From an uncultured Flavonifractor sp. (GTDB taxonomy: Bacteria > Bacillota > Clostridia > Oscillospirales > Oscillospiraceae), in the NCBI RefSeq assembly GCF_944385615.1, contig NZ_CALWXV010000006.1, positions 16,404 through 80,403 on the forward strand: 64,000 nucleotides of DNA. Direction: 5' to 3'. Each line of letters starts with the position of its first letter. Position 1 is the stretch's first letter. This document shows, piece by piece, positions 5,217 to 64,000 of the stretch. The position numbers and the translations under genes were made by a program. Below the pieces are notes generated by a model that made no database searches, had not been told where the DNA came from, and saw nothing but the letters and a program-made list of their open reading frames with translations.

Positions 5217-6413
5217 ATGGCAAGGCGTGCAGAATTTTATTTTGATGAAAAGACCGGATATTACCGGAAGCGGCTCAAGCTCCAGAACGGCACCTACAAA
5301 GATGTAAGGGCCAAGAGCAAGGAGGACCTACGGGCCAAACTCTATGAGCTGGAGACGGCCCAACGGATGGGCCTAATCCTGGATGACAAAACCACCGTGG
5401 CCCAGCTCCTGGCCCAATGGTATACCAACCGCAAAGACGGCCTTTCCTATTCCCGGCGGCGGGATTATGTAAATGCCATCAATAATCACATCTGCCCCAT
5501 CATCGGTGGATACCAACTGAAAGCGGTCAAGCCGGAGGACTGCCAGCGCGTCATGGCGGCTCTGGCTGGAAAATCCCATTCCCTCCAGGTCAAGGTGCTA
5601 GGCGTTATGAATATGGCGTTTGACTGCGCTGTGGAAAACGGCCTGATTTTCCGCTCGCCCAGCACAAAGTTGAAGGCGGGCGGCACCCCTACCGCCGAAA
5701 AGGTCCCCCTTACCCCCGAGCAGTGCGACGCACTGGAAGAGGCTATAAGGGGCACCCGCGCATACCTGTTTGTGCTGCTGGGCCTCTATACCGGCCTGCG
5801 CCGGGAGGAAATCTGCGGCTTGCGCTGGAGTGATGTGGAGCTGAACGCCACAACCCCTCATCTCACAGTAAACAATGCTGTGCGCTTTGAGGGCGGAAAA
5901 GGCATCTTTCCTTCCCCTCTGAAAACTAAGGCAGCCCACCGCACTATCCCCCTGCCCGCTAAGCTGACGGATGCCCTGCGCTCCGCCAAAGCTAACAGCA
6001 ATAGTGTTTTTGTGGTACCAGCCAAAGACGGTACCAACGCCAGCCTCCAGACCGTGCGCAATCTCATGGCAATTATCGAGCGGCGCAGCGTTTGCAATTC
6101 TCTAGCTTCTCCAGAAGAAACCAACGGAAAGCGGCGCGGCCCACAGATCCAGCGGATGCTGGATTTTTCCGTCACTCCCCACTTGCTCCGCCATACCTAT
6201 ATCACCCGTCTGTGCCAGTCTAAAATGGATATTAAAAAGATTCAATATCTGGCTGGCCACAGCGATATTAAAATGACCCTTGGTATCTATAGCCATGTAG
6301 TCGGAAATACACCGGATGAACTGATCGACGCCGTGGAAAATGCCTTTTCGGGGCAAAACTCGGGGCAAAAGGAAAATGCTCAACACGAAAATGTATTGAG
6401 TATCAATGGATAG
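5217..6413 (+). CDS. Tyrosine recombinase (integrase)
   Basis: Start MARRAEFYFDEKTGYYRKR is chosen for GGAGGG six bases upstream, giving 398 residues. The N terminus is an AP2-like arm-binding domain, residues 60-160 a SAM-like core-binding domain (TTVAQLLAQWYTNRKDG), and residues 170-390 the catalytic domain. Catalytic residues seen are Arg195 (TGLRREEICGLRW), His322 and Arg325 (HLLRHTYITR), His348 (LAGHSDIKMT) and the nucleophile Tyr358 (GIYSHVVG). It is the last gene before the tRNA fragment, the usual place for an integrase relative to its attachment site. It should integrate and excise the element. Confidence 0.95.
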   Translation: MARRAEFYFDEKTGYYRKRLKLQNGTYKDVRAKSKEDLRAKLYELETAQRMGLILDDKTTVAQLLAQWYTNRKDGLSYSRRRDYVNAINNHICPIIGGYQLKAVKPEDCQRVMAALAGKSHSLQVKVLGVMNMAFDCAVENGLIFRSPSTKLKAGGTPTAEKVPLTPEQCDALEEAIRGTRAYLFVLLGLYTGLRREEICGLRWSDVELNATTPHLTVNNAVRFEGGKGIFPSPLKTKAAHRTIPLPAKLTDALRSAKANSNSVFVVPAKDGTNASLQTVRNLMAIIERRSVCNSLASPEETNGKRRGPQIQRMLDFSVTPHLLRHTYITRLCQSKMDIKKIQYLAGHSDIKMTLGIYSHVVGNTPDELIDAVENAFSGQNSGQKENAQHENVLSING

Positions 6414-49782: not shown

Positions 49783-50598
49783 ATGCGTAAACAGACCATT
49801 TTGACCGGGGCGGCCGCCCTGGTCCTGGCCGCTTTTCTGGCCGCCTGTAGCGGACCGGCGGTAGAGACCACCCCCACCGCCACCCTCTCCCCCACGCCTG
49901 CGGCAGAGTCCACCGCCCCCGCGTTGGAGAGCACCTCCGCTTCGGAGCCCCCTGAGTGGGGCGAGCAGGTCTTTACCCAGACCTACACCGCCGGAGACGG
50001 CACCCAGGTCATGGAGGTGCGCTACACCCTGCCCATGGTGCAGAACACCGACGCCTTCCCCGCCGGAGCGGTCATCAACGACTGGTACAAGGCCGACGGG
50101 GCCAGCCGCATGGAGAGCGCTGAGGCCAACTACGAGCAGGCGGTGGCCGATTATGATGTGTCCAAGTCCGCCGGGTTCTCCTTCTCCCCCGTCACCGAGG
50201 AGATGAGCTATGAGGTGGTCCTGTCCACCGATCAGGTCATCAGCATCCGCCGCACCTGGTACATCAACAGCGGGGCCGCCTATCCCACCGTGTTCCAGCT
50301 GGGGGAGAACTTTGACCCCCAGACCGGTATCAAGCTGACCTTTACCGACTTCTTTACCGACGCCCAAACCGTTCAGGAACGGGTGGTGGACGCCTTTATG
50401 GCCAAAGCCGACCTGGCCGCCGGCGGTTTTACCCGGGAGGAGATCGCCGGGGCCTATCAGCAGGAGCAGTTCTGTCTGACCTCCGACGGCTACACCTTCT
50501 GGCTCCAGGGCAATTCCCTCAACGCCGTCCACTCCCCGGTGGAGGTCACCCTCCCCTACGACTCTCTGAAGGACGTGAGCATGTATGCAGCCCAATAA
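49783..50598 (+). CDS. RsiV-like lipoprotein (DUF4163/DUF3298)
   Basis: Start MRKQTILTGAAALVLAAFLA, then AC, follows TTGGAGG; Cys22 is lipidated and a Thr/Pro/Ser linker follows. The domain is that of secreted RsiV-like DUF4163/DUF3298 proteins: VMEVRYTLPMVQNTD, YEVVLSTDQVISIRRTWYIN, GAAYPTVFQLGENFDPQTG and the final VEVTLPYDSLKD. In RsiV this fold binds lysozyme; here no sigma-factor gene is adjacent and no cytoplasmic anti-sigma part is present. It overlaps rlmD by 14 bases; 271 residues. Confidence 0.85.
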   Translation: MRKQTILTGAAALVLAAFLAACSGPAVETTPTATLSPTPAAESTAPALESTSASEPPEWGEQVFTQTYTAGDGTQVMEVRYTLPMVQNTDAFPAGAVINDWYKADGASRMESAEANYEQAVADYDVSKSAGFSFSPVTEEMSYEVVLSTDQVISIRRTWYINSGAAYPTVFQLGENFDPQTGIKLTFTDFFTDAQTVQERVVDAFMAKADLAAGGFTREEIAGAYQQEQFCLTSDGYTFWLQGNSLNAVHSPVEVTLPYDSLKDVSMYAAQ

Positions 50599-52213
50599 AC
50601 CGCTGGAAGGACACACCTATCCCCTGTGTATTGAGGGCTACAGCAGCGACGGCGCCGGTGTGGCCCGGCTGGACGGCATGGTGGTCTTTGTCCAGGGGGG
50701 CATCCGTGGGGAGCTGTGCCAGGTGCGGCTCACCCATGTGGGCCGCTCCGCCCTGTGGGGGGTGGTGCGGGAGGTCACCGAGCCCTCTCCCGCCCGTATC
50801 TCCCCGGATTGTCCCTATTATGACCGCTGCGGCGGCTGCCACTTCCGGCACATGACCTACGCCGAGGAGCTGGAGGCCAAGCGGGTACGGGTGGAGGACT
50901 GCCTGCGCCGCCTGGGCGGGGCGGACGTCCGGGTCACCGAGATCCTGGGGGCCGCCCAACCGGAGCGTTACCGCAACAAGGCCCAGTTCCCCGTGGCCCC
51001 CGGTCCCCGCATCGGGTTTTATCAGGCCCGCACCCACAAGGTGGTGGACGTGGCCGACTGCCTGCTTCAGAGTCAGGCGGCCGCCCGGCTGCGGGGGGCG
51101 GTGAAGGACTGGATGACGCAGTATTCCATTCCCGCCTACAACGAGAAGGCCCGCGCGGGGCTGGTGCGCCATGTGTATGTGCGGACCAACCGCCGAGGAG
51201 AGAGCCTGTGCTGCCTGCTGGTCAACGGGGTGGGGGTACCCCGGGAGCGGGAGCTGGTCAAGGCCCTTCGGGCCGCCGAGCCCGGCCTGGTGGGTATCGT
51301 GCTGGGTATCAACCAGAGCCACAGCAATGTGATTTTAGGGGACGCCTACCGCACCCTGTGGGGACAGGATTTCCTGTCCGATACCCTGTGCGGGGCCACC
51401 TTCCAGTTGTCCGTCCCCTCCTTTTATCAGGTCAACTCCGACCAGACCGAGGTGCTCTATGGCAAGGCCCTGGAGCTGGCCGGTCTGACGGGACGGGAGA
51501 CGGTGCTGGATCTGTACTGCGGCATCGGCACCATTTCTCTGGTGATGGCCCGGCGGGCGGGCATGGTGTGGGGGGCCGAGGTGGTGCCCCAGGCGGTGGA
51601 CGACGCCATTCAGAACGCCCGGCGCAGCGGGATCACCAACGCCCGTTTCCTGTGCGCCGACGCGGGCGAGGCCGCCCGGCAGCTGGCCCGAGAGGGAGTA
51701 CGCCCCCATGTGGTGTGCGTGGACCCGCCCCGGAAGGGGCTGGCGGAGGACGTGGTGGCCACCATTGCCGCCATGGCCCCGGAGCGGGTGGTCTATGTGT
51801 CCTGCGACCCGGCCACCCTGGGCCGGGACGTGAAGCGGTTTGCCCCTCTGGGCTACCATCTGGACTGCGCCACAGCGGTGGACCTGTTCCCCCGCACCGC
51901 CCATGTGGAGACGGTAGTACTTTTGTCCAAACTCAACACCAAGCAGCATATCGAGGTGGAGTTGAATCTGGACGAGCTGGATTTGACATCGGCGGAGAGT
52001 AAAGCCACCTATGATGAGATCAAAGCCTATGTGCTGGAAAAGCACGGCCTGAAGGTGTCCAGCCTGTATATCTCCCAGGTTAAGCGGAAGTGCGGGCTAG
52101 ATGTGGGGCAGAACTATAATCTATCGAAGAAGGAAGATGCCAAAGTGCCGCAGTGCCCGCTGGAAAAGGAAGCTGCAATTATGGATGCGCTAAAGCATTT
52201 TCAAATGATTTAG
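50585..52213 (+). CDS. rlmD: 23S rRNA (uracil-5)-methyltransferase with element-derived C-terminal tail
   Basis: The 542-residue product is a RumA/RlmD-type enzyme: an N-terminal TRAM-like domain, the iron-sulfur cysteines CPYYDRCGGCHFRH, RNKAQFPVA, SAM motif LDLYCGIGTISLV, and the catalytic YVSCDPATLGRD. A standard RlmD ends near residue 448 (HVETVVLLSKL). Beyond this, about 90 residues (IEVELNLDELDLTSAESKAT, then VLEKHGLKVSSLYISQVKRK and DAKVPQCPLEKEAAIMDAL) do not belong to the enzyme. I recognise this tail from other clostridial mobile elements, which replace the 3' end of rlmD on integration. Codon composition falls in GC across the tail. Confidence 0.9.
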   Translation: MQPNKPLEGHTYPLCIEGYSSDGAGVARLDGMVVFVQGGIRGELCQVRLTHVGRSALWGVVREVTEPSPARISPDCPYYDRCGGCHFRHMTYAEELEAKRVRVEDCLRRLGGADVRVTEILGAAQPERYRNKAQFPVAPGPRIGFYQARTHKVVDVADCLLQSQAAARLRGAVKDWMTQYSIPAYNEKARAGLVRHVYVRTNRRGESLCCLLVNGVGVPRERELVKALRAAEPGLVGIVLGINQSHSNVILGDAYRTLWGQDFLSDTLCGATFQLSVPSFYQVNSDQTEVLYGKALELAGLTGRETVLDLYCGIGTISLVMARRAGMVWGAEVVPQAVDDAIQNARRSGITNARFLCADAGEAARQLAREGVRPHVVCVDPPRKGLAEDVVATIAAMAPERVVYVSCDPATLGRDVKRFAPLGYHLDCATAVDLFPRTAHVETVVLLSKLNTKQHIEVELNLDELDLTSAESKATYDEIKAYVLEKHGLKVSSLYISQVKRKCGLDVGQNYNLSKKEDAKVPQCPLEKEAAIMDALKHFQMI

Positions 52214-52246: not shown

Positions 52247-52286
52247 ACAATACTCCGCCCAAAGTATACTTTGGGCGGAGTATTGT
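52247..52286. terminator. Perfect 40-bp palindrome between convergent genes
   Basis: ACAATACTCCGCCCAAAGTA and its exact complement lie back to back without a loop. It is a bidirectional terminator candidate; a T run follows on the plus strand and an A run precedes it. Confidence 0.75.
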
Positions 52287-54356
52287 TTAGGATATAGAAT
52301 CTATTTCTGTTTGAATTGCGGACAAAAAGGCTTCTAATAGCTTTTGTTGAATCACAAACCGTTGTTCTTCAAAGTCGGTAACGCCAGCTGTATCCTCGTT
52401 CCAAAATTCTTTATACTTCTTAGCGACATCGGGGTTTAGTTCTAGGTGGTCGCTAGAATGGCGATAAACCTTTATTCGATGTAGTACGTCAAACAAAGCC
52501 GGATATGTTGACTTGATTTCATTCCAGAAATATTTCTTTTTCCCCAATGATTTGCCGTATTTTTCGATTGACTCAACGAAGCAACGATTACAGATATTGA
52601 AGAAATTTTCAAATTCTGGCTCGTTAGACACTGGTCCTACATTTACAAATCTATCTGCCTCGGGGAAAGAGTTTTCGCCAAAAAGTTTGCACGTTCCTGC
52701 ATTAGATATTGCTGTTTCCAGTTGACGCAAATCACGTATAATTGACTTCACACGCTGCGCGACCCATTGATTTCGTTTTTCAAGAGGAACAATTCGATAT
52801 AGGGTTGTTCTCTTTTCTCTCTTGGCTAATTCCATAGCTACGTATCTTCCAGCTACAGGCATTTTAACATATGGCAGCTTTCCATTCTCACGACCAACTA
52901 AGCCGTAACTGTACAGATGTTTTGTATACTCTGTAATTGCAGATAACTCCACAAAATCCGATGTTTGTCCAGAAGCTAGCAACTCAAACATCTCATACTC
53001 TTCTGGGTAGAATTTTTGGATTTCTGAGACAATATGACGGAAATAGTAAGCTAATTCTACATCAATATCATCTTGTAGCTTTTTTAAGTTATCTGCCGTA
53101 ACCGTAACGGGGCGTTTATCCGGGTCATTATACTGACGATTAATATAGCTACACGCTAGGCGCAGAAGCATAGGATGTCCATTAAATTGATCGTATAAAA
53201 GTTTCACAGAATCAAATTCAAATCTGATACCCATTCTGCGCCCTAAAGTCCGAATCATAGTTCTCGCTTCATCTTCAGATAATCCATGTAAATACTCCGA
53301 TTGCACGATACTAAATAGCGGATTTTGAACGCCATTAATTGTATCGATTTCTGTAACACTTGGGTTAACACCAGATAATATGAATACCAGATTCCGATGA
53401 AGGCTTTGAACAGACCAAATTGTTTGCCAAAAGTCTATAAATTCCGTTTTCCAGTGTTCATCAAGCGGAGATTTGAACGAAATATATTCGATTTCGTCAA
53501 ACATAATAATGATCTTTATGTTCTTATCTGATGCCGTTTTCACAACATATCGAAAACTCTTAATGATGTTTTGTTCATCATATTCTTTTCGAATGCGTAT
53601 TTTTAATCGTTTGGCTACATTGCTACATATTTCTCCAAGGAGTTCGTTCCAGTGAAGTTTTCTGTATGATGGAGACTTACAATCATAAAAAAATACAAAC
53701 CCAAGATGCTGTTCCCGAATAATTCGATCAATCTTAAACAAAAAGGATGTTTTACCTGTTTTGCGTAGCCCAAAGATACCTCGGTTTTCGCATCGGCGAA
53801 TCGCATCAATGTATCGTGCAGCAATTTGGTGCCGCCCAAAAAAGGAAGCCTCGTCTCTAATCGGAAGAGTATAGCCAAACAAATCTACGTCATAAAAGTT
53901 TTTCTTTAAGATTTTTCTAACATACCAGTTATCGCTAGTACTTGAAATTAAATCAGAATATAAAAAGGGAACTAGCGAACGAGATTCTTCCTCAGAAAAA
54001 GACATTATTCCTGCATAATTTTGTATTGCAGGATCTTTGGAAACCATAAAAAAGTTAAGTGTATCTATTCGGTTCATGTATGGGAACATTTTAAACAGCA
54101 TATTTGCAGCCTGTAGAGCGCGTGGCTCTAAAGTATCAAAAGGCGAATATACTAATAAAATTTCTTTCTCCAGGCCAAAAGCTTCTTTCATAAAGTCTTC
54201 TGGCTTTATCATATATGAAAAGATTGTAGTGTTATTGATGGACTTCACTTCTGCATAATTTATGTCGAAACCGTTTAGGAACGGCTTCAGGATACTTTCT
54301 TGCTCAGGATGTTCGGCCAGAAAGAGATTCATTATTTCTGATTTAATGGTTCCCAT
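52287..54356 (-). CDS. STAND/AAA-type ATPase with HEPN-like C terminus, last gene of R-M operon
   Basis: The product is 689 residues, starting MGTIKSEIMNLFLAEHPEQE with TTGGAGG upstream. Residues 1-175 are an unassigned N-terminal domain. The ATPase has Walker A GLRKTGKTS (near residue 200), Walker B IIIMFDEIEYIS (near 287), a sensor-like FILSGVNPSVTE and a winged-helix-like region (QTSDFVELSAITEYT). The C-terminal domain (550-689) has IKVYRHSSDHLELN at about 628-641; RHSSDH fits the Rx4H motif of HEPN ribonucleases (inference). It lies 31 bp after res in the same direction and is much more A/T-rich, so it was probably added to the R-M operon. A defence role is likely but unproven. Confidence 0.75.
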   Translation of the reverse strand: MGTIKSEIMNLFLAEHPEQESILKPFLNGFDINYAEVKSINNTTIFSYMIKPEDFMKEAFGLEKEILLVYSPFDTLEPRALQAANMLFKMFPYMNRIDTLNFFMVSKDPAIQNYAGIMSFSEEESRSLVPFLYSDLISSTSDNWYVRKILKKNFYDVDLFGYTLPIRDEASFFGRHQIAARYIDAIRRCENRGIFGLRKTGKTSFLFKIDRIIREQHLGFVFFYDCKSPSYRKLHWNELLGEICSNVAKRLKIRIRKEYDEQNIIKSFRYVVKTASDKNIKIIIMFDEIEYISFKSPLDEHWKTEFIDFWQTIWSVQSLHRNLVFILSGVNPSVTEIDTINGVQNPLFSIVQSEYLHGLSEDEARTMIRTLGRRMGIRFEFDSVKLLYDQFNGHPMLLRLACSYINRQYNDPDKRPVTVTADNLKKLQDDIDVELAYYFRHIVSEIQKFYPEEYEMFELLASGQTSDFVELSAITEYTKHLYSYGLVGRENGKLPYVKMPVAGRYVAMELAKREKRTTLYRIVPLEKRNQWVAQRVKSIIRDLRQLETAISNAGTCKLFGENSFPEADRFVNVGPVSNEPEFENFFNICNRCFVESIEKYGKSLGKKKYFWNEIKSTYPALFDVLHRIKVYRHSSDHLELNPDVAKKYKEFWNEDTAGVTDFEEQRFVIQQKLLEAFLSAIQTEIDSIS

Positions 54357-54387
54357 TATTTAAACCTCCAACATATATTTTGGGGTG

Positions 54388-57012
54388 TTACAATCCCTTC
54401 ACAATCTCCATAAACCGCTCCATAGAATACGCTCCCGGATAGTCCGGCTGCTTGGTCTCGAACACCATGTAATACTTGTACTGTTTTCCGGCCAGCTTCG
54501 CCCACTGGTCACCGATTTTGGCTTTCTCCTTGGACTCATCATTATCCAGGTGATCGCCCTTAGTCTCCACCATCAGTATCTTTCCACTGTGGAGCATCAC
54601 GATAATGTCGGGGTAAGCATGAACAGGTCCGTTAATCTGGAAGCCCAGTCTGGAGATGTTCCGGTGCCACCACTTGACGTTGCCCAACGCTGACAGTGCC
54701 CACACCACCTTGAACTCGTACTCGTTCATATCTTCTTCGGCGGTATAGAGCGATTTTGGCACCATCGAGGTAAATGCCGTTGGGGAGATCACCGCTGGCA
54801 GCGCATAGTTGGGCAGGCAGGAAATCTTGTCCTGCTCCAGCCAGGTATCAAAGACGCCGGAGCGATGCTGGGCAATCAGCTCCTTCACTTTCCCCTGAAT
54901 TTTTACGACATAAGGATACGGTGACTGCTCCAACTCTGAGAGCTGATCGTCGCTCATGGTGCCGATCACCCGGTCGATATATTCATCCAGTTCCCGGTCA
55001 TTGACGCAGTTCATTTTGGAAAGCTTTTGCTTGATAATGCTCTTACACACAGAAAGCCGCTTTTCCGAGGGCTGGGTGTTGAACCACTCTCGGAAAAAGG
55101 CGCTGTCGCCGCCGGACAGACGCCACGCCTTTGCGGTGCTGTCTTTGCTGTCGTCTACATCCACCCGTGCCATCTCAGCGTTGACCGTGGTGAAATCCAC
55201 ATGAGCATCTTTGTCCCGCAGAGAGAAGCCACCCTCCAAGTGCTCCAGTTCCAGGGTTTCGTGGGCTTCCGAAAACAGACTGGGGCCAGTCTCCAGCATA
55301 AACTGGGGGAAGCGCAAGGCAGAGGCTTCGTCTGCAAATTCCTCATTCATTCGGAACTGATTCATTTTGTCGCGCACCTCCGATGGAGCCTGGCTCAAAG
55401 CGGTATTGTCGGCCTGGTTGATCTCGTCCTCATAGGTTTTGTTCTGTTGCAGAGCCTGTGACAGCATGGGGTCGGACTGCATCGTTCCATCCTGCACGGA
55501 TTGCTCCGCCTCCTGTGTGGCTGCTTCAAAACGCGCCTTCAAATCCGAGCCGTCTACCTCCGGCAGATCTGGTTCGTCAGCGGGAGGCGGGACAATAGGA
55601 AGTTGCTCCGGCTCCTGGGTGGGCGCAGCCGTAATGGGCACGTCCACATCCTGTGCCCGGTAGTCGCGGCTGCTGAAACCGGCGCTGTTCAGCCCGGCCA
55701 CCACCTTCTCCAGCGTCTGGTGGAAGTCTGCGGAAGATGTGATGACATAGGAGAGATTCAGTACCTCGCTGCTGTTCTTCTGCGTATAGGGCAGCCGAAG
55801 CACCCGTCCCAAAATCTGCTCCACATCCACGGTAGAAGTGCGGTTTGCCACCGTGGCCAGCACATAGGCAAAGGGGCAGTCCCAGCCCTCTTTCAGAGCA
55901 TTGACAGTGATGATGTACCGGATGGGGCAGTCTGGGGACAGCAAGTCCACATTTTTCAGCTCGTCCTTATCGCCGGTTTTGATGGCGATTTCCTGTTCGG
56001 AAATGCCGCCGTCCACCAGCGTTTTCTTTATTTTTTCGTATGTGGTGCTGTCTGCATTGTTGCGGGGCTGGGCCTGGAAAAGAACGATGGGGCGAATATA
56101 GCGTCCGCTGGTTTCCTGCTCTCGTTTAGCCTGTGCCTCCAGTTTGGCACGAATGGCGATAGCATCCCCATACACATCGGCCTGAGATTTACGGTTGTAG
56201 ACGATGACCGGCAGTTTGACCATGTTGGCCTTTTTCAGGCGTGCAGCATCCACAAAAGAGATGATATTGCTTTTCTTCTTGGGGGTGGCGGTCAGGTCAA
56301 ACACAAAGCTGGGATTAAAGTTTTGCAGCATTTCCACACTCAAATCCGAAGTGGCATGGTGGCTTTCGTCCACGATGACCACCGGATTCAGATAGCGGAT
56401 TACCTGGATCAACGCCGTTTCATCGGTATCAGCCAGTAGAACCGACGGATCATCCATCCACTTTGCAAACTCGGCCAGATAACCGTTCTCCTGATAGGCT
56501 TTGCGCCCTTCTTTTTTGCTGGTGCGGAAGGAATCATAGCTGAGCACAAACAAGGAAAGCTGTTCTGTCACAGCAGAGGGGGTGAAGTTCTGCCCCATGA
56601 GGGCCTGTTCCTTGGAGTACACCTGCACCCGCCCGCCAAAATCCACATCCAGCCGCTGGCGATAGGGATGGTCTGGATTTTCCAGCGCCTTACGGGTCTG
56701 GGTCAGAATGGCCTCAGAGGGCACCAGCCATACAACGGCCTTGGCCCGGCGCTGGGGCATGGCGTCAAAAATCGTCCGAAGAGAACTGGCGGCGATATAG
56801 GTCTTGCCGCCGCCGGTGGGCACCTTGGCACACACATGGGGCACACCGGGGAGCGCATTCACATAATTGGGCATACCGCCGAAGCCCACCAGAACATTTT
56901 TTTCGTTCCAGAGGGCCTGATACGCCTTTGCCGGGCTTTGCAGTTCCACCACCAGCTCCAGGTAGCGTGCAAGATCGGCAATGACTTCTTTCTGATAGGA
57001 TTTCAGTTCCAT
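54388..57012 (-). CDS. Type III restriction endonuclease Res subunit
   Basis: The 874-residue protein has an SF2 helicase domain with AKVPTGGGKTYIAA (Walker A, near residue 66), VVIVDESHHAT (near 213), FDLTATPKKKS, NALKEGWDCPFAYV and EQILGRVLRLPY. A mixed linker (residues 480-560, Pro/Glu/Asp-rich) follows. The C-terminal nuclease domain has AYPDIIVMLHSGKILMVETKG, a PD-(D/E)XK site near residues 800-818. It translocates from the Mod recognition site and cleaves DNA when two sites converge. It starts 14 bp after mod. Confidence 0.92.
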   Translation of the reverse strand: MELKSYQKEVIADLARYLELVVELQSPAKAYQALWNEKNVLVGFGGMPNYVNALPGVPHVCAKVPTGGGKTYIAASSLRTIFDAMPQRRAKAVVWLVPSEAILTQTRKALENPDHPYRQRLDVDFGGRVQVYSKEQALMGQNFTPSAVTEQLSLFVLSYDSFRTSKKEGRKAYQENGYLAEFAKWMDDPSVLLADTDETALIQVIRYLNPVVIVDESHHATSDLSVEMLQNFNPSFVFDLTATPKKKSNIISFVDAARLKKANMVKLPVIVYNRKSQADVYGDAIAIRAKLEAQAKREQETSGRYIRPIVLFQAQPRNNADSTTYEKIKKTLVDGGISEQEIAIKTGDKDELKNVDLLSPDCPIRYIITVNALKEGWDCPFAYVLATVANRTSTVDVEQILGRVLRLPYTQKNSSEVLNLSYVITSSADFHQTLEKVVAGLNSAGFSSRDYRAQDVDVPITAAPTQEPEQLPIVPPPADEPDLPEVDGSDLKARFEAATQEAEQSVQDGTMQSDPMLSQALQQNKTYEDEINQADNTALSQAPSEVRDKMNQFRMNEEFADEASALRFPQFMLETGPSLFSEAHETLELEHLEGGFSLRDKDAHVDFTTVNAEMARVDVDDSKDSTAKAWRLSGGDSAFFREWFNTQPSEKRLSVCKSIIKQKLSKMNCVNDRELDEYIDRVIGTMSDDQLSELEQSPYPYVVKIQGKVKELIAQHRSGVFDTWLEQDKISCLPNYALPAVISPTAFTSMVPKSLYTAEEDMNEYEFKVVWALSALGNVKWWHRNISRLGFQINGPVHAYPDIIVMLHSGKILMVETKGDHLDNDESKEKAKIGDQWAKLAGKQYKYYMVFETKQPDYPGAYSMERFMEIVKGL

Positions 57013-57026
57013 TTCTTCACGCTCCT

Positions 57027-58784
57027 TTACAGCCGGGCAATATCTCGGGGGATTTTCTTAAAGGTGATATTGTGCTTGTATAGTGTCTCCTGCGAGATGG
57101 CGCACAGGTCGGCATAGATGGTGTAGCCCTCGGCTTTGGTCTGGATGGTAGCCAAAAAGGCGTAGTCCAGCGTGGTGACGCTTTCCCGCTCATAATAGAA
57201 GTAATAGGCGGTGTTGCGGCACAGGCCCATGAAGTAGGGCTCGTCCACAGGCTGTTCGGCAGACAGGGGCTCTTTGGTCTCCATGTAGTAGACGTATTCC
57301 CTGATTTTCTGCGGGCCCACTTCTTCATTGAGGTTGCCGTCCGGCAGCAGAAGCACAGGCCCCAGCTCATAGTAGCTGAAATTGCCGCCGGTGCCTTCCA
57401 CAGCTTTTTTGCCCTCTCCGTAGCCATCAATCACCCGTTTAACACGCTCGGCGGTAATGCTGTCGGCGTAGTCCATCATTTCCACAAGGATGAATTTACG
57501 GTTGCCGCCGTCGGCCTTGTTCATGTTGAGTACAGCATGGGCGGTGGTGCCGGAACCAGCAAACGAATCGAGAATTAGGGCCTTTCGATTCCCCGCAATT
57601 GTGAGTATACGCTCGATTAAACGGGAGGGTTTTGGAGTGTCGAAAGGAGACTTATTGTTGAAAATAGATTTTAGAGTTTTTGCGGCTTCATCTGTGTGCC
57701 CTACTTCCTCAAAAGACCAATAGTTTGTTGGTAACCTTCCTCCAACTCCGTCAAGATATGTTTTTCTGCGAATACCGCTTTTCCCTCGATTTGAAAAACA
57801 CAAGAGTGGCCATTTACCTCTATCGTAAATCTGCAAAGCTTTTTTACGAGCTACATCTATTGTATCTGTAAGCATTATGGCCATCACATCATGGCGTACA
57901 TCATCGACACTGACACCACATATTTCTGCCCGCCGCTCATCATCGCCAATTTGACGTAACTCATAATTGCCCCATCCAAGCATAATTTCAAGCACTTGCT
58001 CCTGCCCAAATGCCCAATGCCGCCCATTCGTAGGATAGATCAAACTTCCAGTAAAGGGGTGCTGAACAGCATATACCATGCCTGGATGTGTGGAGGCTCC
58101 TGGGGCAAAAGCATCACTGCTTTTCCACGGCATATCGTCATTATCAGGGTTCTTATATCGAGCATTCATTTCCTCTGTACGAGGTAATTTATTTGGATTC
58201 CAGCCTGGCTGTTTACTGTAAACAATCAGGTGCTCCACTTCGTTCACAATCCCTTTGGAGTCGTTTCGGGTAGAGTATGTCCGCTGCCATGAAATGTTTG
58301 ACACAAAGCAGCTGCTTCCAAAAATCTCGTCACAAATTAGATTCAAATTGGCATACTCAGTATCATCAATACTGATAAAAATAACTCCGTCATCCGCTAA
58401 CAGTCGCTGCAACAACTTCAAGCGGGGATACATCATACACAGCCACTTGTCATGCCGGGAAAGGTCCTCGCCCTCTTTGCCAACCACTTCGCCCAGCCAC
58501 TTTTTGATCTTGGGGTCATTGACGTTATCGTTGTACACCCAGCCCTCGTTGCCGGTGTTGTAGGGAGGATCGATGTAGATGCACTTCACCTTGCCCTCGT
58601 ACTGGGGCAGCAGGGCTTTTAGCGCCTCCAGATTGTCGCCATGGATAATCATGTTTTCGCTGCCGTTGTCCTCGGCGTGCTGCCCAGCTCCATCATAGCT
58701 GTACTGGCGCTCCAGCACCCGATAAGGCACCTCCTGGTGGTGGTTTACCACTTTATCTTTTCCAATCCATTCAAGTGTTGGCAT
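57027..58784 (-). CDS. Type III DNA adenine methyltransferase Mod subunit
   Basis: The 585-residue protein has catalytic motif IV CIYIDPPYNTG (near residue 73) and SAM-binding motif I LDSFAGSGTT (near 403), the order of a beta-class N6-adenine methyltransferase. The region between, about residues 150-395, contains the target-recognition domain and is clearly A/T-richer (57.58-58.35 kb) than both ends, suggesting a swapped recognition domain. It modifies one adenine within an asymmetric site and guides Res. It overlaps the upstream membrane-protein gene by 14 bases. Confidence 0.93.
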   Translation of the reverse strand: MPTLEWIGKDKVVNHHQEVPYRVLERQYSYDGAGQHAEDNGSENMIIHGDNLEALKALLPQYEGKVKCIYIDPPYNTGNEGWVYNDNVNDPKIKKWLGEVVGKEGEDLSRHDKWLCMMYPRLKLLQRLLADDGVIFISIDDTEYANLNLICDEIFGSSCFVSNISWQRTYSTRNDSKGIVNEVEHLIVYSKQPGWNPNKLPRTEEMNARYKNPDNDDMPWKSSDAFAPGASTHPGMVYAVQHPFTGSLIYPTNGRHWAFGQEQVLEIMLGWGNYELRQIGDDERRAEICGVSVDDVRHDVMAIMLTDTIDVARKKALQIYDRGKWPLLCFSNRGKSGIRRKTYLDGVGGRLPTNYWSFEEVGHTDEAAKTLKSIFNNKSPFDTPKPSRLIERILTIAGNRKALILDSFAGSGTTAHAVLNMNKADGGNRKFILVEMMDYADSITAERVKRVIDGYGEGKKAVEGTGGNFSYYELGPVLLLPDGNLNEEVGPQKIREYVYYMETKEPLSAEQPVDEPYFMGLCRNTAYYFYYERESVTTLDYAFLATIQTKAEGYTIYADLCAISQETLYKHNITFKKIPRDIARL

Positions 58785-59319
58785 GGGGATTATCCTCCTG
58801 TCGGTTTGGCGCTTGATTGGCTGCGTTAGTATTGATCATTTGAGCAAACGCACCAGCTACCTTTGCAAGCTCTGTCTGTCCTTTTTGGATGATCTGTTGC
58901 TGATCCATTGCCTCCATCATCCCTTTCGGAACATAAGGATTCTGAATGGTTTCCCATGTGATTTTATCCTTATATCCAAGAGAAATAGCCATTTTCTCAA
59001 GTAATTTATCTTGTGCTTGCTGCATTTGCTTTAACTGTATTTCATCTGGGTCCTTGACACAAAGAGCATGATAATATTCACTCCAAGCCTGTCGAACATT
59101 TTTATCATCCGAAAAAACAATATCAATAATGTTCATGGCTCGTGTACTTTCAACGGACCAGCCGATTCTGTTCATCATCATCGTCTTAAACACGTCCATT
59201 TTATCTTTTCGTTTTGCTGAAACATTTTGCAAATGCTGACCAATTATCACGGCTATTATGGGAATCAGGATAAGTGCAAGCAAGTTCAAAATGGCAGTTA
59301 CAATTTCAAATGGAGTCAT
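58771..59319 (-). CDS. Membrane protein of the R-M operon (DUF6680-like)
   Basis: The 182 residues begin with one membrane segment (IVTAILNLLALILIPIIAVI), then a helical cytoplasmic part with KMDVFKTMMMNRIGWSVEST, RAMNIIDIVFSDDKNVRQAW and SEYYHALC, and a Gln/Asn-rich end. The pattern resembles DUF6680 proteins, small membrane proteins seen next to restriction and other defence genes; this assignment is from memory. It lies between the XRE gene (24 bp) and mod (overlap), so its product is made together with the R-M enzymes. Function unknown. Confidence 0.65.
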   Translation of the reverse strand: MTPFEIVTAILNLLALILIPIIAVIIGQHLQNVSAKRKDKMDVFKTMMMNRIGWSVESTRAMNIIDIVFSDDKNVRQAWSEYYHALCVKDPDEIQLKQMQQAQDKLLEKMAISLGYKDKITWETIQNPYVPKGMMEAMDQQQIIQKGQTELAKVAGAFAQMINTNAANQAPNRQEDNPHANT

Positions 59320-59343
59320 AGATCTCCCTCTCTTTCTATCTTG

Positions 59344-59553
59344 TTATGGAGCATCAGGAAAAATATCCACAATATCTCCGACATTGACTTTTAACACACC
59401 ACAAATTTTCCCGAGTGTTTCTAGGGTCACTTCTTTATCGCGGTTTAGTTTTGTCATAGTATTGGGAGCGATTCCCGCCGCTCGGCGTAAGTCTGCCTTG
59501 CTCATCTTCCGGTCAATGAGCAGTTTCCAGAGCTTATTGTAAGAGATGGCCAT
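59344..59553 (-). CDS. XRE-family controller-like regulator
   Basis: The 69 residues (MAISYNKLWKLLIDRKMSKA, then DLRRAAGIAPNTMTKLNRDK and EVTLETLGKICGVLKVNVGD) make up a single HTH_26-type XRE domain. GGAGG lies seven bases upstream, and the operon promoter is 35 bases before the start. It is the first gene of the five-gene R-M operon, the position of controller (C) proteins that set the delay between methylation and cleavage. The binding site is not evident. Confidence 0.82.
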   Translation of the reverse strand: MAISYNKLWKLLIDRKMSKADLRRAAGIAPNTMTKLNRDKEVTLETLGKICGVLKVNVGDIVDIFPDAP

Positions 59554-59616: not shown

Positions 59617-59697
59617 TTAGTTTTCGCACTCCAATACGAAAATCTCCAACCAAGACCGAGGGTTCTGCGTATGCTTTGCCCAGCCGCCGCTGAACAG

Positions 59698-59748
59698 AAA
59701 CAGGCACAGAAATTTGCCCACCGCCCGGGCAAATCTCTGTGCCTGTTT
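59698..59748. terminator. Long hairpin upstream of the R-M promoter
   Basis: AAACAGGCACAGA + ATTTGCCC pair with GGGCAAAT + TCTGTGCCTGTTT, about 21 base pairs with one internal mismatch, loop ACCGCCC. A four-T run follows on the plus strand. It may insulate the R-M operon from the upstream gene or be part of a larger structured region. Confidence 0.6.
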
Positions 59749-59915
59749 TACCTGTTCGGGCAGGAGCGCATCCATCGTGTGAGAACAGGATGGATAGCCA
59801 CTGCACGGACAGGCGGGGAGCCCAGAGGGGAACAGCGTTCCCCTTGGCGAGAGGTTTCCAAAGGAGGGCAGCGCCTTCCTTGGCACACGACTTTCCCACG
59901 GAAAGTCTAGTGTGT

Positions 59916-62149: not shown

Positions 62150-62770
62150 ATGACATGGTTTGAGCTGATAAAACAAGTTGTCCGAGTTCCGGAGGCTGCG
62201 GTCTATTATGGGCTGCAAGTCAGTCGAAACGGCATGGTCTGTTGTCCGTTCCATAATGACCGACACCCCAGCATGAAACTGAACGAGCGTTATTTTTACT
62301 GCTTCGGCTGCGGAGTAACCGGTGATGTGATTGACCTTGTGGCGAGGTTATTTGACCTGAGCAGTTACGAGGCAGCGCAGAAGCTGGCTTATGACTTCGG
62401 GATTGACCCGGACAAACCACCGGCAGCAATCGCTCTGCCCAAACCGGAACGTCCTCTGCTGAAAGCATACCGGCAGGAGGAAGTGCGCTGCCTGCGGGTA
62501 TTGTGCGATTATCTGCATCTTCTGGAAAGCTGGAAGGTGCAGCACACACCCAAGACACCGGAAGATGTTCTGGATGACCGGTTTGTGGAAGCCTGCCAGA
62601 TGCTGGACTATGTGGAGTATCTGGCAGATTTGCTCATTGCCGCCGAGCTGGAACAACGGGTAAAAATCGTAGAAATGCTGAACAAGGATGGTCTGATCGC
62701 CGGTTTGGAGGAACGGCTGGACAGGCTGAAAAAGGAGGACGATGCCCATGAAAAACAAAGCGCAGCTTGA
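62150..62770 (+). CDS. CHC2 zinc-finger primase fragment protein
   Basis: The 206 residues start nine bases after GGAAGGGAG. Residues 25-75 are a DnaG-type CHC2 zinc finger: CCPFHNDRHPSMKLN with Cys and His ligands, and YFYCFGCGVTGDVIDLVARL with the second pair. No TOPRIM catalytic domain follows; the rest is helical. It works with the primase/helicase gene that starts inside its 3' end. Together they are the replication module of the element. Confidence 0.88.
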   Translation: MTWFELIKQVVRVPEAAVYYGLQVSRNGMVCCPFHNDRHPSMKLNERYFYCFGCGVTGDVIDLVARLFDLSSYEAAQKLAYDFGIDPDKPPAAIALPKPERPLLKAYRQEEVRCLRVLCDYLHLLESWKVQHTPKTPEDVLDDRFVEACQMLDYVEYLADLLIAAELEQRVKIVEMLNKDGLIAGLEERLDRLKKEDDAHEKQSAA

Positions 62771-64000
62771 CGGGATGCCCGTCTGGTTTGATGGAAAAAG
62801 CATCAACGAAGCCCTGTTTTGTGAGGAGTTCTTGCAGACGCACAAGATCATCTTCACAAACGGGGCTTTTTTCACGCCCGAAGGCCGTGTGACCGATGAG
62901 CTGCCCCTGCGGGGAGAGATTTTTGAGGAGCTGAAATGCTGTGCGGTCAGCAACATTCCCCGCAAAATCAGCAACATTGTGGAACTGATGAAACTGGCGG
63001 CGCTGGAGGAGGATTTTCCCCCGGAACCGGACCGGATTCATCTTTCCAACGGGACACTCTTTCTGGACGGGACCTTTGTGGAGGGAAAGCCCAAAATTGT
63101 CCGCAATCGTTTCCCTGTGGCCTACAACCCCAACGCCCCGAAACCTGTTCTATGGCTGAAATTTCTGGATGGGCTGCTCTATCCGGAGGACATCCCCACC
63201 TTGCAGGAATATATCGGTTACTGCCTGATTCCCAGCAACAAGGGACAGCGAATGATGGTGATTAAGGGCAACGGCGGTGAGGGCAAGTCGCAGATCGGCG
63301 CTGTGCTGGGAGCTTTGTTCGGCTCCAACATGAAGGACGGCAGCATAGGGAAAATATCCGAGAACCGATTTGCCCGTGCGGATTTGGAACATATCCTCCT
63401 GTGCGTGGATGACGATATGCGGATGGAGGCCCTGCGCCAGACCAACTATGTAAAATCCATCGTCACCGCCCAGGGCAAGATGGATTTGGAGCGCAAGGGC
63501 AAGCAGAGCTATCAGGGATGGATGTGCGCCCGGCTGCTGGCCTTCTCCAACGGAGATTTGCAGGCGCTGTTTGACCGGAGCGACGGATTTTACCGCCGCC
63601 AGCTGGTGCTGACCACAAAAGAAAAGCCTGCTGGCCGTATAGATGATCCCGACCTTGCGGAGAAGATGAAAGCCGAGGTGGAGGGCATTCTGCTGTGGGC
63701 TTTTGAGGGATTGCAGCGGCTGGCCGCCAACAATTTCAAGTTTACCGAGAGCCAGCGCACAAAAGACAATCGGGAGGCCGTCAAACGAGATAACAACAAT
63801 ATCTTTGATTTTCTGGATTCAGACGGGTATGTTCGCCTAAAAGCCGATATGTCTGCCAGCTCCAAAGAGCTGTACGAAGCATACCAGATTTACTGCACCG
63901 AGAACAACCTGCCTGCCCTGAAACCCCGCAGCTTCAGCGAAGCCCTGATTGCCTGCCAGAGCCGCTACAATCTGGAATACTGCAACAATGTGACCAACGC
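62748..64000 (+). CDS. D5/P4-type primase-helicase, 3' end off window
   Basis: A start ATG (MKNKAQLDGMPVWFDGKSIN) lies nine bases from AAAGGAGG and inside the CHC2 gene (overlap 23 bases); about 417 codons are visible and the frame is open at the right edge. A D5-N-like domain (RIHLSNGTLFLDGTFVEGK) is followed by a superfamily 3 helicase with Walker A VIKGNGGEGKSQIGAVLGAL (near residue 175) and Walker B ILLCVDDDMRM, then TAQGKMDLERKGKQ. It should unwind DNA at the element's origin. Helicases of this type are common on phages and integrative elements. Confidence 0.9.
   Translation, partial: MKNKAQLDGMPVWFDGKSINEALFCEEFLQTHKIIFTNGAFFTPEGRVTDELPLRGEIFEELKCCAVSNIPRKISNIVELMKLAALEEDFPPEPDRIHLSNGTLFLDGTFVEGKPKIVRNRFPVAYNPNAPKPVLWLKFLDGLLYPEDIPTLQEYIGYCLIPSNKGQRMMVIKGNGGEGKSQIGAVLGALFGSNMKDGSIGKISENRFARADLEHILLCVDDDMRMEALRQTNYVKSIVTAQGKMDLERKGKQSYQGWMCARLLAFSNGDLQALFDRSDGFYRRQLVLTTKEKPAGRIDDPDLAEKMKAEVEGILLWAFEGLQRLAANNFKFTESQRTKDNREAVKRDNNNIFDFLDSDGYVRLKADMSASSKELYEAYQIYCTENNLPALKPRSFSEALIACQSRYNLEYCNNVTN

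Follow-up and report, generated by a model that had tools for sequence, protein, structure and literature searches.

Restriction-modification (R-M) systems are usually regarded as stand-alone enzymes, and a well-studied case of a built-in backup is PrrC, which is encoded in a type I operon. Passages of PMC3710099 describe PrrC as an ABC-ATPase with a HEPN domain residing in such an operon, and treat the guarding of R-M as published for PrrC and as a proposal for many R-M-linked HEPN genes, while part of PMC12707154 summarises R-M guardians. In the current study, a five-gene operon was analysed in a 64,000-nucleotide stretch of DNA from an uncultured Flavonifractor sp. (hereafter the window). 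Judged by its sequence, this operon makes up a complete type III R-M system that an inserted element bears as cargo at its end, directly behind an rlmD-like gene. The mod and res genes are accompanied by genes for an XRE-type regulator, a membrane protein of family DUF6680 and a P-loop ATPase. The reading that we prefer, at a little less than even confidence, is that of a type III R-M system in which a conserved mod-res core is flanked by two exchangeable accessory slots, slot 1 preceding mod and slot 2 following res; the occupant of slot 2 would serve as a backup effector.

All five genes lie on the minus strand, in the order XRE/Cro-type regulator (59344..59553, 69 aa), DUF6680 gene in slot 1 (58771..59319, 182 aa), mod (57027..58784, 585 aa), res (54388..57012, 874 aa) and ATPase gene in slot 2 (52287..54356, 689 aa), with gaps of 24, -14, 14 and 31 bp exactly as given in the initial annotation; the negative value denotes a 14-bp overlap of the slot-1 gene with mod. 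XRE, Mod and Res are ordinary members of their families with the motifs present. Pfam assigns HTH_26 to XRE (2.4e-20), N6_N4_Mtase to Mod (4.1e-35) and ResIII to Res (2.8e-18), while PADLOC identifies Mod as MTase_III (1.5e-194) and Res as REase_III (1.6e-78). As is characteristic of type III systems, Mod, an N6-adenine/N4-cytosine methyltransferase, carries DPPY and FxGxG motifs (here DPPYNTG and FAGSGT) around its target-recognition segment (TRD; 57731..58318), and Res, encoded 14 bp from mod, combines an SF2 helicase with a PD-(D/E)xK nuclease, for which GGGKT, DESH and a C-terminal PD...ETK were read by eye.

The best support for assigning the two extra genes to the system, as the initial annotation had proposed, is provided by locus L127 of genome G054. 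The mod-family search returned matches at E 1e-60 or better in 21/197 genomes of the order (own genome counted), and L127 is a related element inserted at the corresponding rlmD-like gene. It retains the promoter, XRE (88% identity over 66 aa), Res (97.7%) and both ends of Mod (91% DNA identity). The blocks of DNA homology with the window, at 85-91%, span 59650-59366, 58799-58318 and 57731-54365, and the three segments without homology correspond to slot 1, the TRD and slot 2. The 170-aa protein encoded in slot 1 of L127 has a single hydrophobic helix near its N-terminus (2.18 at residue 6) and no Pfam match, and it does not genuinely resemble DUF6680 (best BLAST E 0.17, across 9 residues that presumably belong to the mod-overlapping tail); one search for its relatives returned none and another only its own genome (1/87). 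Slot 2 of L127 encodes a 907-aa protein with Mrr_cat (2e-11) and nSTAND1 (2e-8) domains, which bears no similarity to the window ATPase and has relatives in 15 plasmid-collection records. L127 thus keeps the position and broad type of both extra genes with non-homologous proteins. All four copies with a res at least 93% identical (the window, L019, L020 and L127) encode a short one-helix N-terminal membrane protein before mod, its family varying and its stop overlapping the mod start, and in the three copies where slot 2 is legible it holds a large NTPase from one of two unrelated families.

The same five-gene order, for which the initial annotation had suggested a search, exists in a second genome: a scan of genome contigs with a DUF6680 alignment brought up Pseudoflavonifractor capillosus An827 (L020), with all five genes. 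The scan also yielded Gemmiger formicilis An723 (L019), the contig of which breaks off inside res, after XRE, DUF6680, mod and the greater part of res. The L020 proteins are 99% (XRE), 98% (DUF6680), 97% (Res) and 99% (ATPase) identical to those of the window, and Mod differs in its TRD. Over 59700-51951 the DNA identity to L020 is 91-100% per 250-bp bin, save for four bins inside mod (33-76%) that correspond to the target-recognition segment; this segment differs among the window, L020, L019 and L127, with matching sequence on both sides. Relative to L020, dN/dS is 0.079 for the ATPase gene and 0.054 for res, and the value of 0.247 for the DUF6680 gene derives from only three synonymous and three other changes. 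Synonymous divergence (dS) is unequal along the operon, at 0.028 for DUF6680, 0.055 for the ATPase and 0.223 for res, which suggests that its parts were exchanged separately.

The occupant of slot 1 in the window matches DUF6680 (PF20385) at 5.2e-43, with 147.1 bits against a gathering cut-off of 23.2. Its hydropathy peaks at 2.87 at residue 9, and the AlphaFold model (pLDDT 83.4) consists of a long N-terminal helix followed by a helical domain, which would lie on the cytosolic side. No PDB structure matched this fold at E 0.001 or better, and in our own reading the invariant residues look structural and not catalytic. The family is present in 4/197 genomes of the order and 3/398 of the phylum (own genome counted in each). 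A scan of genome contigs with the DUF6680 alignment yielded 47 loci, eight of which were dropped as near-duplicates, and for the linkage count L029 and L062 were also dropped, as they have less than 600 bp downstream. A type III mod, detected with a profile built from the mod genes of those very loci, lies within 2 kb downstream on the same strand in 18 of the 37 representatives, versus 1/176 control ORFs (open reading frames) taken from the same contigs at a distance of over 4 kb; three of the 18 mod genes are incomplete (L041, L042 and L065). When mod follows immediately, its frame overlaps that of DUF6680 in 13/15 representatives, based on longest-ORF starts. Other neighbours include HsdR (L024), HsdM (the L035 cluster), HsdS (L036, L060) and GmrSD (L050), and R-M-type neighbours, with an HKD-Snf2 helicase (L022) among them, were counted manually at 24/39 representatives, a figure for which controls were run in the type III part only. 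The other 15 include contig-end loci and loci with unscanned neighbours; some have AlbA_2/HATPase_c_4 genes nearby, and others lie beside housekeeping or mobile-element genes, for example those for UDP-glucose dehydrogenase, cysteinyl-tRNA synthetase or a transposase. Although rare, DUF6680 is closely associated with R-M genes, and its link to type III mod is strong.

A number of further DUF6680 contexts were recorded. The pairing of XRE with DUF6680 seems able to move between type III and type I systems: in L035 (9772-12125) the pair is placed directly ahead of a type I HsdM gene, near-identical DUF6680 proteins occur in L034, L035, L052 and L056, and XRE precedes DUF6680 in L034 as well. A protein with AlbA_2 and HATPase_c_4 (RecG-C-like) domains is encoded directly upstream of DUF6680 in L027, L031, L041, L046 and L061. 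In L014 (2511-6268; the same locus as L022) DUF6680 overlaps the HKD-Snf2 helicase gene (PADLOC C3a139, 8e-119), behind which stand further genes of no assigned family. AbiE-type toxin-antitoxin genes directly precede DUF6680 in L037 (AbiEii, by Pfam) and, judged from similar gene sizes, in L057 and L064, while in L065 the DUF6680 frame itself begins with AbiEii-looking sequence (by eye), apparently a deletion fusion. Single-sequence searches of viral contigs, plasmids and phages returned no DUF6680 protein, nor did the alignment search of viral contigs, and a full-text search, the coverage of which excludes preprints and most subscription papers, found no paper naming the family.

The slot-2 ATPase of the window displays a Walker A motif (GLRKTGKTS), a Walker B motif (FDEIEY) and a C-terminal R632-H-x3-H637. 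Its Pfam matches (AAA_35, ATPase_2 and two weaker ones) all fall below the curated cut-offs, and none of the PADLOC families matched it at E 0.1, the 14 aligned relatives giving a few weak matches (best 6.1e-05). The AlphaFold model, based on a 15-sequence alignment (pLDDT 84.2), predicts an AAA/STAND-like core and an all-alpha C-terminus with helices from 525 to 688; among PDB structures the Walker-type ATPase 2qen matches best (E 1.2e-7), and the 50 matches listed in each whole-model fold search are AAA-type or mainly so. The protein is present in 3/394 genomes of the order (own genome counted). An R(x3-4)H pattern, picked post hoc from sequences already inspected, occurs within the last 90 residues of 16/16 non-redundant relatives, as compared to a mean of 2.6 and a maximum of 9 in 2000 shuffles. 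R632 and H637 are invariant in the five closest members (5/5), down to 34% identity, with H or N following the arginine, and R632-H-x3-H637 agrees with the HEPN pattern given in a passage of PMC3710099, R-x4-6-H with a polar residue after R. The C-terminus of a sister group of 15 sequences aligned with the HEPN_Swt1 profile in hhalign (82.5%, E 9.8e-6), the three control profiles giving 0.3% or less; taken singly, one of 16 ATPase C-termini matched HEPN_Swt1 in Pfam (0.0018), and comparison of the ATPase C-terminus with PDB sequences gave nothing better than E 0.75.

In locus L101 (7681-15838) a 55%-identical ATPase of the window type is located 7 bp behind the gene of a 1992-aa helicase resembling PDC-S37/Hhe of PADLOC, which constitutes a second, independent tight pairing of such an ATPase with a helicase-nuclease; the helicase gene is itself positioned behind a PDC-S48 exonuclease-like gene. 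By eye, the ATPase gene of L011 follows a TIR-looking gene at approximately 150 bp, and two genes upstream of that of L076 lies a phage gene that looks like a methyltransferase gene. An effector-type gene inside an R-M operon, as expected of a PrrC-like guardian, is found in the window and in L020; the slot-2 ATPase is probably a PrrC-like backup effector. As to activity, triggering and the fate of the cell, we infer the following course. Mod and Res would form the first line of defence, and the membrane protein may partner Mod or the R-M complex, most likely by holding it close to the envelope, at the place of DNA entry. The slot-2 NTPase would remain inactive as long as restriction works and would be freed once a phage overcomes or overwhelms restriction, to act through its C-terminal domain, possibly a HEPN-like RNase, in the way that PrrC backs up EcoprrI.

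Several observations weigh against this reading, beginning with the ATPase itself. The C-terminus of the window subgroup scores only 0.6% against HEPN_Swt1 and 0.4% against the sister group, it has no Pfam match, and many sister-group motifs are R-x3-H, one residue below the published R-x4-6-H. Since the profile test failed, HEPN was rejected as an established label for the window ATPase, the C-terminus of which may be called HEPN-like by motif only. Furthermore, the initial annotation had stated that its composite defence system would be refuted if homologues of the ATPase and the membrane protein lay mostly apart from R-M genes, and only one of the 19 ATPase relatives with readable neighbours (L008-L012, L020, L067-L078 and L101, of which L067 has only 585 bp upstream) is a member of an R-M operon, namely that of L020. 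Most of the relatives stand alone, whether on viral contigs, plasmids or chromosomes, and several adjoin integrases or recombinases. L079 and L080, distant ATPases with an unalignable C-terminus, were dropped, and L066 is truncated at its 5' end; of the 16 Klebsiella plasmid records that hold the ATPase one was examined, and the plasmid matches H29 and H31-H40 were left out. A search of named phages with the ATPase found none, a single-sequence search of viral contigs gave one 27-residue match that was not used, the L100 ATPase had no match among viral contigs, and the only L100-type ATPase in the family of G756 was that protein itself (1/25). The composite system is thus partly supported, its membrane-protein half by the R-M linkage of DUF6680, while its ATPase half does poorly by the neighbourhood criterion.

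The wider res family was surveyed through 32 further loci (L151 having a partial res only and no mod found). Of the three close copies with a legible slot 2, the window and L020 are near-copies, so that the slot exchange amounts to one contrast. L147 (G858), with a res of 70% identity, has no recognisable XRE, DUF6680 or ATPase gene and no flagged membrane protein before mod. A 991-aa ORF behind the L147 res was rejected as a slot-2 gene in view of an opposite 849-aa ORF, and the slot was taken as empty; L147 also has a 293-aa gene between mod and res (5504-6385), possibly a third slot. By our own judgement a plausible same-strand gene follows res within 150 bp in 11/32 loci (L020, L127, L135, L140, L141, L142, L151, L153, L154, L157 and L158). 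In the remaining 21 either such a gene is absent or the region is illegible (the contigs of L019 and L023 break off), and slot 2 is vacant in L040, L147 and many other relatives; ORFs of 68-94 aa (L144, L150, L160), the L147 ORF and genes beyond 150 bp (L138, L148, L149) were not counted. At a threshold of E 1e-4 the genes behind res show no relation to one another; among their products are DUF4268 (L135), an AAA_5 ATPase (L153) and two proteins annotated in their records as Fic (L154) and Piwi (L157), the gene of the last being 43 bp behind a type III res on a Fibrella plasmid (L157:5314-12113). A TIR protein is encoded 258 bp after res in L148, and the L141 gene, read by eye as SIR2, had no Pfam match. 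A short membrane protein is encoded right before mod in L019, L020, L023 and L040 (all DUF6680) and in L127, but not in other loci with a res of similar identity, among them L134, L148, L149 and L152; in L150 a 365-aa ORF that begins with a hydrophobic stretch lies 147 bp ahead of mod; across the wider family slot 1 usually does not hold a membrane protein. Slot occupancy is therefore optional in the wider family.

The main rival explanation is co-location without coupling, whereby the end of the element at the rlmD-like gene is a hotspot for cargo and the ATPase an independent single-gene defence that happens to share the transcript. We consider this a serious possibility, if one that falls well short of even. 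The solitary relatives of the ATPase, several of them beside integrases or recombinases, speak for it, as do the GC content of its gene (37% versus 55% for res), its dS to L020, which at a quarter of that of res suggests separate histories, the mutually unrelated and often missing slot-2 genes of the res family, and the absence of both extra genes from L147, the next closest res. A weak, 9-of-12 promoter match inside the 3' end of res (54569-54541) could moreover drive the ATPase gene by itself. This explanation is at odds with the tight gaps of 31 and 14 bp behind res, with the different NTPase situated exactly at the res end in L127, and with the window-type ATPase tightly following a helicase-nuclease in L101.

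It is unlikely that the additional genes form a control module, in which DUF6680 and XRE time or confine restriction, for example by delaying Res at the membrane during methylation of a new host, and the ATPase remodels the enzyme with no killing of the cell. Mobile R-M systems require control of their establishment, XRE is found immediately before slot 1 in L019, L020, L034, L035 and L127, and DUF6680 overlaps mod and has invariant residues of a structural look, all of which would suit such a module; the large NTPase with its conserved R/H pair and the Mrr_cat nuclease-NTPase that substitutes for it are, in contrast, effector-like and not chaperone-like. A decaying or chance arrangement free of selection could appeal to the rarity of both extra genes (4/197 and 3/394 genomes) but is very improbable, being already disfavoured by the dN/dS of 0.05-0.08 for res and the ATPase gene and further opposed by the intact frames and motifs and the five-gene order conserved in L020.

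With regard to expression, the promoter TTGTCC-17-TATAAT reported in the initial annotation was located at 59616-59588 on the minus strand, with TG ahead of the -10 element. The consensus scan alone is weak evidence, in that it returned 17 promoter-like sites versus 10.5 +/- 3.0 in shuffles; the site is conserved in L020 and falls within the conserved blocks of L019 and L127. A 20-pair hairpin (59746-59700) lies upstream of the operon, and an inverted repeat (59692-59749), also preceding the promoter in L019, L020 and L127, could be a terminator or a recombination site. At the other end, a perfect 20-bp inverted repeat (52247..52286) abuts the ATPase stop codon and is a probable terminator common to the ATPase gene and the convergent plus-strand gene at 50585..52213, a 23S rRNA methyltransferase gene outside the system that we take to be rlmD-like. 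Given this abutting repeat and the hairpin upstream, a single five-gene transcript is plausible.

The GC content is 60% over the first 50 kb of the window, 55% in res, 40% in the DUF6680 gene and 37% in the ATPase gene, a mosaic such as an acquired element would show. The contig stops at the end of the window, so that the far end of the element lies beyond the visible DNA. Adjoining the operon, the stretch 62150-64000, which is cut by the contig end and has a DNA identity of ~65% to L127, holds genes that by eye resemble a CHC2-type primase and a D5-like helicase, and is probably the replication end of the integrated element.

Tentatively, and with some doubt, the two-slot reading may be extended to a class of type III R-M systems in which mod-res acts as a sensor platform under guard, with two slots for cassettes that recombine, one for a membrane-anchored adaptor translationally coupled to Mod and one for a backup effector behind Res, DUF6680 being a general accessory of ATP-/NTP-dependent R-M (types I, III and IV). 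No description of a type III core surrounded by exchangeable slots was encountered in the titles and abstract openings searched, a coverage that excludes preprints and most subscription papers. If true, the swapping of an anchored partner and an effector at fixed places would make the guarding of restriction a general modular design, the natural cassette swaps would supply material for probing slot function, and DUF6680 would gain a first context.

When compared to known systems, the operon shares its Mod and Res motifs and its PADLOC assignments (MTase_III and REase_III) with type III R-M of what we take to be the EcoP1I/EcoP15I kind, but differs from these in having three added genes in the transcript and two exchangeable slots. 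The Mrr_cat and nSTAND1 domains of the slot-2 substitute in L127 recall systems that we presume to be of the Avs-type/Mrr-STAND kind, whereas no Mrr-type nuclease domain was detected in the window ATPase. The Hhe/PDC-S37 systems of PADLOC are approached through the L101 pairing, though the window operon has no such helicase. Swt1-like HEPN proteins with an AAA+ ATPase in R-M operons, the Ava_2192 group in a passage of PMC3710099, have the architecture of the sister group; the window C-terminus, however, fails the Swt1 profile and Pfam gave no DUF499 match. In architecture the operon is also like PrrC-EcoprrI, an anticodon nuclease in a type IC hsd operon, in that an ATPase with a candidate RNase domain is encoded in an R-M operon and is proposed here to act as a second line upon failure of restriction. 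The present operon departs from PrrC-EcoprrI in its type III core, its AAA/STAND-like ATPase, its added membrane protein and the exchange of its slots.

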